A stretch of 32,589 bases of DNA from Coriobacteriales bacterium (GTDB lineage Bacteria; Actinomycetota; Coriobacteriia; Coriobacteriales; UBA8131): positions 1-32,589 of the forward strand of contig JAISGO010000006.1 of assembly GCA_031263025.1 (NCBI GenBank). The letters are read 5' to 3'. Numbering within the stretch: the stretch's first letter is position 1; every line of letters starts with the position of its first letter. The notes under the pieces were generated by a model. It saw only the letters and a program-made list of their open reading frames with translations, made no database searches and was not told the DNA's origin. Positions 1-32,588 of this stretch are shown one piece after another. The translations under genes and the position numbers were made by a program.

Positions 1-2
1 AC

Positions 3-992
3 GGGATTTCCACGGAGCTGTGGTCAAGCTTGCTTGACAAGAAATCTTCTTATCCTCTGACCAATCGGGCGGTCTCCGGGGTCTATCCGGCAGCTTCCAC
101 TTTCAAGGCCTTCTCCAGTATGGCTGGCCTGCAGTTCGGTATCATCGGGCCGGATACCACGCACGACTGCAAGGGTTATTGGGATGCCTATGGCAAACAG
201 TGGGGCCAGAAGTGCTGGATCTATCCCGGCCATCACGGCGTCCTTGGCCTGGAGGAAGCGATCAAGCATTCCTGTGATATCTACTTCTATAATGTCGGTG
301 CCGACTTCTACAAGGCCTGGCAGGCCGAACCTGCCCAGGCGCGTGTCGATGATTACCAGAACTACGTGAAGACCTGGGGTTTTGGCAGTGTTTCCGGGAT
401 TGATCTACCTGGTGAGGCCTCTGGACGTATCCCCGATGCAGCCTGGAAGGCCCAGACTTTCGTTGACACCCCAGAAGAAGCCCAGTGGCAGCCTGGCGAT
501 ATGACCAACATGTGTATCGGACAGGGCGATATCCTGGTCACGCCGTTGCAGATCTGCAACGGCTACGCTGCGATCGCCCGTCGTCAGATGCTTACCCCAC
601 ATCTCTTCAAGTCGGCCTTGGACTCTGACGCGGCCCCCGTGGTGACCTATACCCCGATCCCGCCGACGACCACTCCAGAGGTGGTTCCCGAACATGTCAA
701 GCGGGTCGAGAGGGGTTGCGAGATGGTGGTTACCCAGACTAATCTCTTTGATGACCTACCGATCAAGGTCGCCGGGAAGAGCGGCACCGGTGAAGTTTCG
801 GGTAAAGACGACATCAGCTGGTATGTCGCCTATGGACCGGTCGAAAAGCCCAAATATTGCGTGGTCTGCGTGGTCGAGCAAGGCGGCGGTGGCTCGACTA
901 CCGCCATCCAGGGAGTGGCCCAGACTTTCGCCAAGCTCTATGACACTTCAGCAGGCTCGATCACCTTGCGTAGCGCCACCAATGAGCGCTAA
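3..992 (+). CDS. mrdA: Penicillin-binding protein 2 / peptidoglycan D,D-transpeptidase, C-terminal part (5' end outside window)
   Basis: Frame is open to the window start (GISTELWSSLLDKKSSYPLTNRAVSGVYPAASTFK). Contains the SxxK motif STFK and the KSGTGE active-site motif of PBPs. Stop overlaps the ruvC start. Confidence 0.85.
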   Translation, partial: GISTELWSSLLDKKSSYPLTNRAVSGVYPAASTFKAFSSMAGLQFGIIGPDTTHDCKGYWDAYGKQWGQKCWIYPGHHGVLGLEEAIKHSCDIYFYNVGADFYKAWQAEPAQARVDDYQNYVKTWGFGSVSGIDLPGEASGRIPDAAWKAQTFVDTPEEAQWQPGDMTNMCIGQGDILVTPLQICNGYAAIARRQMLTPHLFKSALDSDAAPVVTYTPIPPTTTPEVVPEHVKRVERGCEMVVTQTNLFDDLPIKVAGKSGTGEVSGKDDISWYVAYGPVEKPKYCVVCVVEQGGGGSTTAIQGVAQTFAKLYDTSAGSITLRSATNER

Positions 993-1530
993 ACCCACAC
1001 TTGCCAATCCGCCCTTACGGATCTTCGGCCTTGACCCCGGCCTTGCCCACACTGGTTGGGGCGTGCTCGAACAGTCCGGTAGCCGTCTGCGTGCGATTGC
1101 CTACGGTTGTGTCGTGACTGGCCCCGAAACCGAGATCAGCCTGCGTCTGCACCAGATCTTCAGCGAGGTCTCTGCCGCTATCGAGCGCTATGCTGCGCGG
1201 GAGTTCGCGATTGAGACGGTCTATCACAAGGGCAACGACCGTTCGGCTATCGCCACCGCTGAGGCTCGTGGGGCCGCCTTGGTCGCGGCCGGGGAGGCCG
1301 GTCTTAAGGTCGGCGAATATGCCCCGGCCAAGATCAAGAGTGCTGTTTGTGGTAACGGCCGGGCCGACAAGCGTCAGGTGCAGTTCATGGTGGCACGCCT
1401 GCTCGGCTTACAGCAGGAGATTAAGCCCGATCATTGCGCCGATGCCTTGGCGGCGGCGATTTGCCATGCCCATCTCCGCCATGCGCATGATTTATTGGAA
1501 CCGCCCCAACCGAGCGCGGGGCCACATTGA
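982..1530 (+). CDS. ruvC: Crossover junction endodeoxyribonuclease RuvC
   Basis: MSAKPTLANPPLRIFGLDPGLAHTGWGVLE... with FGLDPGLAHTGWG, AIETVYHKGNDRSA and DHCADALAAAICH typical of RuvC. The track ORF (694..1530) starts too early; ATG at 982 fits homology. Confidence 0.93.
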   Translation: MSAKPTLANPPLRIFGLDPGLAHTGWGVLEQSGSRLRAIAYGCVVTGPETEISLRLHQIFSEVSAAIERYAAREFAIETVYHKGNDRSAIATAEARGAALVAAGEAGLKVGEYAPAKIKSAVCGNGRADKRQVQFMVARLLGLQQEIKPDHCADALAAAICHAHLRHAHDLLEPPQPSAGPH

Positions 1531-1545
1531 GCGCTGCTCGCAGGT

Positions 1546-1574
1546 TTGACATTAACGAACAAATGTTCTATAAT
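1546..1574 (+). promoter_or_regulatory. Consensus sigma70-type promoter of ruvAB with embedded LexA (Cheo-type) SOS box
   Basis: TTGACA (1546-1551), 17-nt spacer, TATAAT (1569-1574). CGAACAAATGTTCT (1556-1569) lies between the hexamers and matches CGAAC-N4-GTTC. Confidence 0.85.
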
Positions 1575-1603
1575 AATCCTGATAGCGGAGAAGTGAGGTC
1601 GTC

Positions 1604-2185
1604 ATGATTGCCCAGTTGAGCGGGCGCCTACTGTTAAAGGATAAATCCAGCTGCGTGCTTGAAGTGGGCGGAGTCGGATTCGAGTTACAGATGTCAGCGA
1701 GCGCCTTGGCTGCTCTGCCAGCCTTGGATGCGCCGCTTACCCTTTTGACTTACCTACAGGTAAGCGACGATGCCTTGACTTTATACGGCTTTCTCAGCGA
1801 CGCTGAGAGGCATCTTTTCCGCGAGTTGATCGGCGTCTCCAAGGTCGGCTCCAAGCTTGCTTTGGGCGTGCTCTCGGCTTTTCCTCCTGATCAGCTGCAG
1901 GCGATCTTGGCTGCTGCCGACGCCAAGCGTTTGGCCGAGGCTCCCGGCATCGGCAAGAAGACGGCCGAACGCATCGTCTTGGAATTAGCGGATAAATTGG
2001 CGAGCGCCGAAAACGATGCGAAAACGCTGGCTAGTGGCACAGAGAGCGTCCAAAGCGAGGCCCACCGGGCCCTGGCCCAGATGGGTTTCAGTGAGACTGA
2101 GATCGACTTGGCCCTGCGTGACCAAAGCGGTAGCGTCGAGCAGGTCTTGACGGCTGCCCTGCAAAGCCTTGGTGGGCACCTATGA
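1604..2185 (+). CDS. ruvA: Holliday junction branch migration protein RuvA
   Basis: [31 protein letters not shown]...; [15 protein letters not shown] and [16 protein letters not shown] HhH motifs. Confidence 0.95.
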
Positions 2186-3252
2186 TATGGGAAGCTGACC
2201 AGGATATGGCCAAGGCCGCCAATAATCAGCCTCAAGCTGGCCAGTCTGCCATACTCGACCCCGGTCTGAGTAGCGAGGATCTCGGTTTTGACCGTTCCCT
2301 GCGGCCGACTCTTTTGGCGGATTATTGTGGTCAGACCAAGGTTAAAGAGAACCTCCAAGTCTTGATCGAAGCCGCCAGGAGCCGGGGTGACGTACTCGAC
2401 CATATCCTTTTCTCTGGCCCCCCGGGCCTGGGTAAGACCACCCTTTCCACCATCATCGCCAATGAGCTGGGAGTCCAGATCAAGACTACCTCAGGGCCGG
2501 CAATCGCTCGCACGGGCGATTTAGCGGCGATCCTGACCAACCTTGAGCCGGGCGACGTGCTCTTCATTGATGAGATACATCGTCTCAACCATGCAGTTGA
2601 GGAGGTCCTCTATCCGGCGATGGAGGACTTCGCTTTGGATATCGTGATCGGGGAGGGGCCGGCGGCGCGTTCGATCCGCTTGGATGTGCCACATTTCACC
2701 TTGGTGGGCGCGACCACCAGGACCGGTCTTTTGACTGGGCCCCTGCGTGATCGTTTCGGCATTGCTTTCCGCCTTGATTATTACAGCAGCGATGAGTTGA
2801 CACAGATCGTGACTCGTTCAGCTGGGCTCCTCTCGGTGGATATAGACCAGGCTGGCGCTGTTGAGATTGCTAGCCGCAGCCGAGGTACGCCGCGTCTGGC
2901 TAATCGTCTCCTTAAAAGAGTGAGGGATTTTGCCCAGGTCAAGGCCAAGGGGCAGATCGATGAAGCGGTGGCCCGGGCGGCCCTTAGCTTTTTCGAGGTC
3001 GACGAGTTGGGTTTAGATAAGACCGATCGCCGCATCCTTAGCCTGCTCACCACCACTTTCGCAGGAGATGCCGTCGGACTTTCCACGATCGCATCGGCCC
3101 TTGGCGAGAGCGCTGATGCCCTTGAGGATGTCTACGAGCCTTACCTGCTCCAATGCGGTTTGATCAAGCGCACTCCGCGCGGTCGTGTGGCCACCGCTGC
3201 AGCCTACGCCCATCTTGGCTTAGCCGCTCCGGATGCAGTTGAAGAGCCATAA
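2182..3252 (+). CDS. ruvB: Holliday junction branch migration DNA helicase RuvB
   Basis: [19 protein letters not shown], Walker [50 protein letters not shown]; overlaps ruvA by 4 nt. A downstream start is possible. Confidence 0.96.
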
Positions 3253-3350
3253 GTCCCGCTGCGCCTTGCTTTAAGCCGGCCAACTACCGAGATCACGACC
3301 TTGGCTTTAATATCCGTTACAATCTGTTACAGTCGAAGGAAAGGGCTAAG

Positions 3351-3803
3351 ATGTTCCAACGTGACTACCTGATGCGCATGATAGCCGAATTGATTGATGC
3401 GGTCATCCGCTCAATCAAGCGCCAGTATCCTGACGCTAAAGCGGCAATCCAGGGTATCGAGGGCGAGATCGGACGGGTCACGGATAGCGACCACAACCTC
3501 CTGCTCTCGATGGCGCCTGACTCCATGGTGGCCTACCTTGATCTAGGACATTTCCAGGCCGATAGCGCCGAGTACGTGGTGCGTTCTCTTTATTATCTAA
3601 GCGATCTCTATGCCAAGCAAGGCGACCACAGCAGTGCGAACCTACGCGCTCTCCAGGCCGACAAGCTAAGTGCGCGCTATCAGCTGGGCATCGACGCGAG
3701 CTCGGCTAGTGCAGACCAGCTGGAGAAGTTCTTCGCCTCCCCTGATGATCCTTCGGTAGAGCCCGATCCGCAGCTTTCCGCTTCGTCTTCGCAGGCGGAT
3801 TAA
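3351..3803 (+). CDS. Small hypothetical protein (resembles DUF6483-type proteins; tentative)
   Basis: 150-aa ORF preceded by an AAGGAAAGGGC SD-like tract; sequence MFQRDYLMRMIAELIDAVIRSIKRQYP... No catalytic motif recognised. Confidence 0.65.
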   Translation: MFQRDYLMRMIAELIDAVIRSIKRQYPDAKAAIQGIEGEIGRVTDSDHNLLLSMAPDSMVAYLDLGHFQADSAEYVVRSLYYLSDLYAKQGDHSSANLRALQADKLSARYQLGIDASSASADQLEKFFASPDDPSVEPDPQLSASSSQAD

Positions 3804-29960: not shown

Positions 29961-30035
29961 GGGCGATTGGCGCAGCGGTAGCGCAGCTGCTTTACACGCA
30001 GAAGGTCAGCGGTTCAAATCCGTTATCGCCCACCA
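29961..30035 (+). tRNA. tRNA-Val (anticodon TAC), encoded CCA
   Basis: Acceptor GGGCGAT/ATCGCCC, D-stem GCGC/GCGC, anticodon loop TTTACAC, T-arm AGCGG-TTCAAAT-CCGTT, terminal ACCA. Confidence 0.95.
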
Positions 30036-30315: not shown

Positions 30316-31545
30316 CTATGAAACAGTCTCGACATACATCATCGAATTAAGCTCGGTGGCCATCTGTTTGATGACTACCTCACTTCTGTGGTTGCCGTAG
30401 GTGTTCATTACCACCAGCGGTGATTGTCCGGATATCTGCCCTATTTGGTTAGGCGGGTATCCGCGGTCAAGCAAATGCGTAACGTAGCTGTGCCTGAGCG
30501 AATGCAAGGTGAGGCTCGGGTCAAAGCCATTGTCAATCAAGAACGTCTTACTGAACTTTGACATGTTGCTCGGCTGCATGAACTTACCCGTAGACGTAGC
30601 ACAGACCGGGGTATCATCGCCCTGGTAATAGCCATAATACTCTAGCCGCTTACGTTGCTCTTCCTTTTCTGTAAGTAGATATTCATAGAGAACATCCGGG
30701 ATAGGGATAGAGCGCGTTCCGTTGGCGGTCTTGGGTTTGTCCAGCCAAAGTGTACTTTTCGCGTTGCGGCTTTCAGCCTGGGCTTTAGATATCTGCGTCG
30801 CTGCTTGCACGATGTTCAAGACGTGATGATCAAAATCCACATGCTGCCAGGTAAGAGCACAGGTCTCACCGCGCCGGGTGCCGCAACAAGTGTTTATCAA
30901 CATAGCCGTGGCCTGGTCTTTGCGCGGGTATTCCAAAAGTCTCGCGATAAGACGGTTGACCTCTTCCTCGCTCATGATGGTTTTCTTGGGCTTCTCCACC
31001 TTGAACGGACAGGCGTTAGCGATTGGATTGTACGGGATGAGCTGTAGCTGCACCGCGCGTTTGAACACGGCGTTGGTAAACGTACCGATCTTGCTTACCG
31101 TGTTGGCGCCAAGCGGGCCTCCGTCCTTACCACCGTGGTCTTTCATGTCGCGGTAGAACTGCTCCATGTCGGCGAACGTGATGTCTTTGAGCAACCTACC
31201 GCCCAAAGCACGCTCTGGATAAGCCAATGTTTTCGCATAGCCGTCAATCGTATGCGGCCTGACCTTCTGGGTTTCATCCAAGAAGTCTAGGTACTCGTGT
31301 ATTGCCTCGCCTAGCGTTACTGTATCAGCATTGAGCTTGTTGCCCGTCTTGGCGGCTTGCGCAGCCTGGGCTTCTAGCTCGCTGATCCAGTCACGCAGCT
31401 TGCGCTCGGCTTCACGCTTGCCAGTGGCGTTGACCATCTTTGATGCGCGGACGGGCTTGCCTGTCTCGTCATGGTCAACCACGACACGCAACAGGTACTT
31501 GTCCTTGCCTTTCTTTTCCACAGAACCGTTTCCATAGATTTTCAT
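30316..31545 (-). CDS. Tyrosine-family site-specific integrase
   Basis: GTRRGETCALTWQHVDF, TLHSLRHSYVTHLLDRGYPPNQIGQISGQSPLVVMNTYGN (R...HxxR...Y). Start at 31545 (MKIYGNGSVEKKGKDKYLLRV) supported by GAGAGGGGGTG SD; track start is 31656. Confidence 0.93.
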   Translation of the reverse strand: MKIYGNGSVEKKGKDKYLLRVVVDHDETGKPVRASKMVNATGKREAERKLRDWISELEAQAAQAAKTGNKLNADTVTLGEAIHEYLDFLDETQKVRPHTIDGYAKTLAYPERALGGRLLKDITFADMEQFYRDMKDHGGKDGGPLGANTVSKIGTFTNAVFKRAVQLQLIPYNPIANACPFKVEKPKKTIMSEEEVNRLIARLLEYPRKDQATAMLINTCCGTRRGETCALTWQHVDFDHHVLNIVQAATQISKAQAESRNAKSTLWLDKPKTANGTRSIPIPDVLYEYLLTEKEEQRKRLEYYGYYQGDDTPVCATSTGKFMQPSNMSKFSKTFLIDNGFDPSLTLHSLRHSYVTHLLDRGYPPNQIGQISGQSPLVVMNTYGNHRSEVVIKQMATELNSMMYVETVS

Positions 31546-31664
31546 TATCTTCACCCCCTCTCGTTTTTTCCGATAACCAATAAAACTTATCGTTAGCTCC
31601 ATTAGGAGCAGCGATACCATAGCGGGGGTCGTCTGTTTGAGCTTAATGTTGGTCATAACGGGGA

Positions 31665-32588
31665 TTATTCGTCTGCCTTCGCAGGCTTGTCGTTATCGAG
31701 CACCCGGCAGCTGTTCTTACAGAACACGGCAGGCTTATAACGCTTTCGTGGCTTGTATTCCTTATAGAATTTGAATATCTTGCCGCAATGTTTGCAGGCT
31801 ATCCAATCCTGCTTCGCGGCTAAAACGAAGTCAAGGCTAGATACGATTGCCTCAAGCAGTGAGCCTTCCTCTATCCTGCGGGTATGCTCTTTGAGGATCA
31901 TAGCTATGTCGTTAGCGTTGGCGATGCCACGGATACCGGCGTTTTCGGCTGCGACTACGCTTTTGGTAGCGCTGATATAGTCGCGTGCTAACCTGACGGC
32001 TTTCTCAATCTGTTCGGCTTGCAAGAGCTCCAACCATTCCAGAATCTCCTGGATTTGCTCGTCCGTGGGTTTGCCGCCATAAGCTTCATTGGCCAGCTTG
32101 ATCACTCGTTCTTGCGTGACTGGTAACAAGGCCTCGCTATTGTAATCAAGCCATACGCCGAACATCACGTCGTAACCATGCGACTTGAAATCATTCGGGC
32201 ATTTCTGCTGCATGTGCTTAGAGTTAGCCAGGTATTCCATCAACTCGTTGCCGCGCAGGCCAGCACTATAGGCAGTGAGCAATGTCGTAGCCACTTGTAG
32301 TTGCCTGATAGTGAAAGCCACTTCGCGCACCGATACGATACCACCCAAGTGCTGGTTGGCATAATCGCCGCTTACAACGGCGCCACGCGCGAGGCTTGAA
32401 CCCTCGAACATGTCCACCAGGTAATTAGTAATCTCGCCGTCCACGGTGTCGATCTCCGTGGGGAACTTATAACAATCCCATGCCAGCCCCATCCTCACGC
32501 TCTCGATGCCACGCGAATAGACCGTAGGCCAAAGGTAATCGTCTGATTCCTTGCGGTTGCGGTCATACATGAAGCGCCGGTTGCTGTC
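31665..32588 (-). CDS. Hypothetical protein with C-terminal four-cysteine zinc-finger, 5' end outside window
   Basis: Reading frame stays open to the window edge (…DSNRRFMYDRNRKESDDYLWP). C-terminus CKHCGKIFKFYKEYKPRKRYKPAVFCKNSCRV resembles a treble-clef zinc finger. Confidence 0.72.
   Translation of the reverse strand, partial: DSNRRFMYDRNRKESDDYLWPTVYSRGIESVRMGLAWDCYKFPTEIDTVDGEITNYLVDMFEGSSLARGAVVSGDYANQHLGGIVSVREVAFTIRQLQVATTLLTAYSAGLRGNELMEYLANSKHMQQKCPNDFKSHGYDVMFGVWLDYNSEALLPVTQERVIKLANEAYGGKPTDEQIQEILEWLELLQAEQIEKAVRLARDYISATKSVVAAENAGIRGIANANDIAMILKEHTRRIEEGSLLEAIVSSLDFVLAAKQDWIACKHCGKIFKFYKEYKPRKRYKPAVFCKNSCRVLDNDKPAKADE

Follow-up and report, generated by a model that had tools for sequence, protein, structure and literature searches.

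We begin by considering the short interval between ruvC and ruvA, where the locus raises the question, "is ruvAB controlled by LexA separately from ruvC?" In the window (the whole stretch of 32,589 nucleotides that was analysed), ruvC (Holliday junction resolvase), ruvA and ruvB all pass curated family models (Table 1). The start of ruvB overlaps the stop of ruvA, and the two genes are therefore placed on the same transcript. An initial sequence-only reading had located ruvC upstream of a consensus promoter for ruvAB, and the coordinates agree with it: ruvC ends at 1530 and the promoter starts at 1546, lying wholly inside the 73-bp gap that separates ruvC and ruvA.

The same reading had claimed that both promoter hexamers are exact, that a LexA (Cheo) box CGAAC-N4-GTTC sits in the spacer, and that the box has no further match in the window. 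All of this is borne out. The window reads TTGACATTAACGAACAAATGTTCTATAAT at 1546-1574, that is, TTGACA and TATAAT at exact consensus around a spacer of 17 nucleotides. In a window-wide scan this is the single 12/12 match to TTGACA-N17-TATAAT (two other matches need 2 mismatches), and within 850-3500 no other promoter-like site matches at 12/12. The spacer contains CGAACAAATGTTC at 1556-1568, 35 bp 5' of the ruvA ATG, which is the one exact CGAACN4GTTC in the window. The candidate operator agrees with CGAACNNNNGTTCG at 13 of 14 positions, the 14th base being T in place of G because the -10 hexamer begins at that base. When one mismatch is allowed, 7 matches are found in the window against 6.0 expected; since these are at chance level, the information lies only in the exact site and the case rests on it. 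For scoring we use a 14-bp matrix made from the ruv-locus boxes of other genomes with the window genome left out, its training sites being predicted rather than proven. The site at 1556 scores 21.9 bits and the runner-up in the window 9.7 bits, while no score in 20 Mb of simulated sequence (first-order Markov) equals 21.9 bits. As is expected of an operator, the box overlaps the promoter of ruvA, between the exact -35 and -10.

Table 1. Features of the ruv locus and related sites. Positions with a C prefix are on other contigs of the same genome.
Feature	Position	Strand	Evidence or remark
mrdA (penicillin-binding protein 2), 3' half	1-992	+	TIGR03423 profile positions 279-591
mrdA, 5' half (inferred)	C53:15035-16148		TIGR03423 profile positions 2-275
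ruvC, Holliday junction resolvase	982-1530	+	PF02075 167 bits; TIGR00228 131 bits, above cut-off
-35 hexamer TTGACA	1546-1551	+	promoter pattern scan
LexA (Cheo-type) candidate operator CGAACAAATGTTCT	1556-1569	+	pattern search, matrix score
Palindromic core GAACAAATGTTC of candidate operator	1557-1568	+	
-10 hexamer TATAAT	1569-1574	+	promoter pattern scan
ruvA	1604-2185	+	TIGR00084 182 bits; PF01330; PF14520
ruvB	2182-3252	+	TIGR00635 465 bits; PF05496/PF17864/PF05491
tRNA-Val gene	29961-30035		
lexA box	C23:4088-4099		
recA box	C5:31101-31112		
dinB box	C40:16844-16855		
TIGR03916 radical-SAM boxes, two	C38:18446-18480		L013/L115

We turn to the genome that would supply the repressor, for which the sequence-only reading had suggested looking for lexA and for the same motif at lexA, recA, dinB and uvrA. 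The window genome (G000) is a draft of 1.39 Mb in 58 contigs, about 89% complete, with a G+C content of 57%. It encodes one LexA (TIGR00498, 210 bits). In alignment with solved LexA proteins, the Ala-Gly cleavage site (GRIAAGEP) and the catalytic serine (GNSM) and lysine (TVKS) are all conserved, and judged by these residues the protein is of the cleavable type. Its recognition region is SPSTIHNHL, which we take to be of the Gram-positive type. Using pattern searches and the scoring of targeted stretches, we find 21 GAACN4GTTC palindromes in the genome. Boxes like that of ruvA lie just 5' of lexA (where a second, weaker box overlaps the first), recA, dinB/pol IV, a TIGR03916 radical-SAM gene, a RhuM gene and a Bro-N/DinD-like ORF; the majority of the remaining palindromes have far lower scores and lie within ORFs. 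The recA promoter reads TTGACA-TCGAACAAATGTTCTGC-TAATAT, with the box filling the 17-nt spacer, the same architecture as at ruvA. The expected motif is present at lexA, recA and dinB but missing at uvrA, ahead of which no LexA box is found (best 1.2 bits). Of the conditions that the sequence-only reading named as refuting, the two open to computation, a genome without lexA and other SOS genes without the motif, do not apply. This set of boxes is that of an ordinary, predicted SOS regulon of the Gram-positive type.

Several members of this predicted regulon have features of their own. The gene annotated "putative DNA modification/repair radical SAM" (TIGR03916, presumably the same family as COG4277) is preceded by LexA boxes, usually two and otherwise one, at each of the 28 family loci with a readable upstream region (loci L090-L117, G000 included). 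Often one box is inside the -35/-10 spacer and the second about 26 bp downstream, making this gene a more constant predicted SOS target than ruv in the family. In Bacteroidetes, COG4277 is reported to belong to SOS networks (PMC8565304). The RhuM (PF13310) gene at C1:46384 and the Bro-N/DinD-like ORF at C1:49070 (L001, L002) are 2.7 kb apart, the latter being broken by a frameshift; the two have a promoter of roughly 47 bp in common, box GAACAGATGTTC included, which looks like the copying of a single SOS promoter. A further site, CGAACAAGCGTTCG at C6:14333-14344 (L006), is followed by TATAAG, and an mraZ-like ORF is found about 210 bp downstream; SOS control of the cell-division cluster via this box is possible. 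For gut bacteria such control has been reported, and B. subtilis LexA bound rhuM and mraZ sites of the gut SOS meta-regulon in vitro (PMC3998124).

Does ruvC have a box of its own? In an SOS-controlled ruvCAB operon the LexA box would stand ahead of ruvC. No LexA box is found within the 220 bp ahead of ruvC in the window genome, where the best match has 3 mismatches in 8. What lies there is the 3' end of mrdA: its stop codon is at 990-992, and the start codon of ruvC overlaps it (ATGAGCGCTAA, 982-992). The window contig starts inside mrdA; contig C53 ends with the N-terminal half that is missing from it, and from these complementary halves we infer that contigs C53 and C33 join through mrdA. 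A matrix scan of C53 over the 7 kb that run up to mrdA finds no LexA box either (best 5.4 bits), and hence there is no sign of LexA control of ruvC. A LexA-controlled promoter is predicted in the ruvC-ruvA gap of the window genome, with no counterpart ahead of ruvC in the stretches scanned, which is the arrangement of an SOS-regulated ruvAB with ruvC outside the regulon; with an exact box before ruvA and none ahead of ruvC, LexA should control ruvAB and not ruvC.

The relatives offer a comparison for this arrangement. RuvA is found in 27/33 genomes of the same family and RuvC in 148/151 genomes of the order sample, and the sequence preceding ruvC can be read in 64 relatives (23 of the same family and 41 of other families). 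Of these 64, 55 carry a box with no more than one mismatch in the 220 bp before ruvC (16/23 of the same family, 39/41 of the others); the true count is slightly lower, since at least one of them (G011) has a weak box that falls within coding sequence. At the ruv locus of the relatives the same motif adjoins a -10 and, standing ahead of ruvC, would control ruvCAB. Between ruvC and ruvA, none of the 64 carries an exact box and only one has a one-mismatch match. The window genome reverses this pattern, with the exact box ahead of ruvA and at least 3 mismatches ahead of ruvC, and among the compared set it alone has mrdA directly ahead of ruvC. The claim that ruvAB could be inducible separately from ruvC is strengthened in this prediction, since no LexA box is seen ahead of ruvC, where most relatives have their only one.

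Box placement at the ruvC promoter also differs by family, being just upstream of the -10 in the window's family and tending to be just downstream of it in other families of the order (loci L130-L173 compared with L063-L089). In two genomes of one genus (G024 and G023; loci L066 and L081), TGAACATATGTTTG and TAAACATATGTTTG overlap the ruvA start codon, and no strong box is seen ahead of ruvC in G023, the one of the two where that region can be read. These sites are possibly due to chance or to a second relocation; we do not adopt them as a second relocation, as they have no adjoining promoter and the start-codon context inflates their scores. At the other end of the window, past the tRNA-Val gene, a minus-strand ORF (30316-31656) reads by eye like a tyrosine-recombinase integrase, beside an ORF of unassigned family (31665-32570), and this end of the window is probably the edge of an integrated element.

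Can the arrangement be explained otherwise? The box might be a chance palindrome in a strong housekeeping promoter, leaving ruvAB constitutive. That one-mismatch matches are at chance level in the window, and that CGAAC and GTTC words are not rare at 57% GC, would suit this explanation, but it must also account for an exact site whose external-matrix score is unreached in the simulated sequence, for the same promoter-box architecture at recA and for the motif ahead of ruvC at orthologous loci; we find it scarcely credible. Nor do we give much weight to the idea that the ruvC-[box]-ruvA order is an assembly artefact, which seems very improbable. The genome is a draft, represented here by a single assembly, and the contig starts in mrdA; even so, the overlap of mrdA and ruvC (ATGAGCGCTAA) is tidy, G+C is even across the junction, ruvC and ruvA follow one another in the usual order, and the stretch that holds them and the promoter lies 1 kb in from the contig edge.

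A different possibility is that the box is indeed a LexA operator, yet ruvC is co-induced through damage control of its own, other than a recognisable LexA box, so that the two functions are not uncoupled. Because ruvC overlaps the end of mrdA, it has no room for a standard promoter of its own outside coding sequence, and the closest box-like match in front of it has 3 mismatches; co-induction is to us an unlikely outcome. In its favor, the scan covered the 220 bp ahead of ruvC and the 7 kb of the inferred mrdA region and would miss weak or non-LexA control, some family members are also without a recognisable ruvC box, and ruvC might have an unseen upstream promoter under some other regulation.

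We are highly confident in the reading in which the site at 1556 would be a functional LexA operator, making ruvAB damage-inducible and leaving ruvC basal after the loss of the operator ahead of it. In the undamaged cell, a LexA dimer on CGAACAAATGTTC between the -35 and -10 would block RNA polymerase from the ruvAB promoter. Upon DNA damage, RecA on single-stranded DNA would stimulate the self-cleavage of LexA and the site would be vacated; the freed consensus promoter could then give strong transcription of ruvA and ruvB and more of the RuvAB branch-migration motor. Meanwhile ruvC would be read with mrdA from upstream, without a LexA site, and its level would stay basal. The sequence directly shows the motif, the promoter, lexA, the further genes that bear the motif and the different position of the box in relatives; LexA binding, damage induction and basal ruvC at this locus are what we infer from it. 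In this lineage ruvC would have lost the operator in front of it and ruvA would have gained a promoter-operator, turning the usual SOS ruvCAB operon into one with SOS control of ruvAB only; it is the distribution of boxes in the relatives that points to this direction of change.

It is likely, if less firmly so, that this is a lineage-specific rewiring, in which the operator moved from the front of ruvC to that of ruvA and the mrdA (cell-wall) transcription unit took in ruvC, independently of enterobacteria and vibrios. If this is true, the branch migration of Holliday junctions would be damage-inducible while junction cleavage would not. The novelty is the position of the box after ruvC, the ruvAB-only arrangement itself being already known. 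In a lineage distant from Proteobacteria, ruvC would here have dropped out of the SOS regulon once more, apparently independently, with ruvAB retained. This supports the proposal (PMC3323433) that it is RuvAB (fork rescue), and not RuvC, whose damage control is maintained by selection. Those close relatives that have the ancestral order can readily be compared with it. The promoter itself is a textbook SOS promoter, and the mechanism is ordinary, of mild interest as parallel evolution.

How does the locus compare with known systems? In E. coli, ruvAB is SOS-regulated and ruvC is unregulated, while the Vibrionaceae have intermediates with boxes ahead of both ruvC and ruvAB and a later loss at ruvC in some Vibrio species (PMC3323433, Sanchez-Alberola et al. 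2012). The window resembles these systems in having a ruvAB LexA promoter (predicted here) downstream of ruvC, with ruvC outside LexA control; it differs in that their motif is of the gamma-proteobacterial CTGT-N8-ACAG type and that of the window is CGAAC-N4-GTTCG. Moreover, the split in V. vulnificus and V. parahaemolyticus followed gene insertions, whereas in the window ruvC is joined to mrdA. The resolvase of B. subtilis is RecU, and this species is not known to have a ruvC. Its ruvAB operon is SOS-controlled via a CGAACN4GTTCG box (Au et al. 2005, as tabulated in PMC9578287), the same operator sequence with the same target genes, but the window has ruvC directly upstream, outside the controlled unit. 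The gut SOS meta-regulon (PMC3998124) has LexA sites of the same Firmicutes/Actinobacteria type, including those of mraZ and rhuM, although ruv genes are not mentioned in its text. Finally, in Streptomyces (venezuelae) and Caulobacter LexA controls ruvC-ruvA or ruvCAB as one operon (PMC9380542; PMC9578287). LexA control of Holliday-junction genes is common to these systems and, as predicted, to the window; the difference is that theirs is a single controlled operon, with the LexA site ahead of ruvC in Streptomyces, the arrangement predicted for most of the window genome's relatives.
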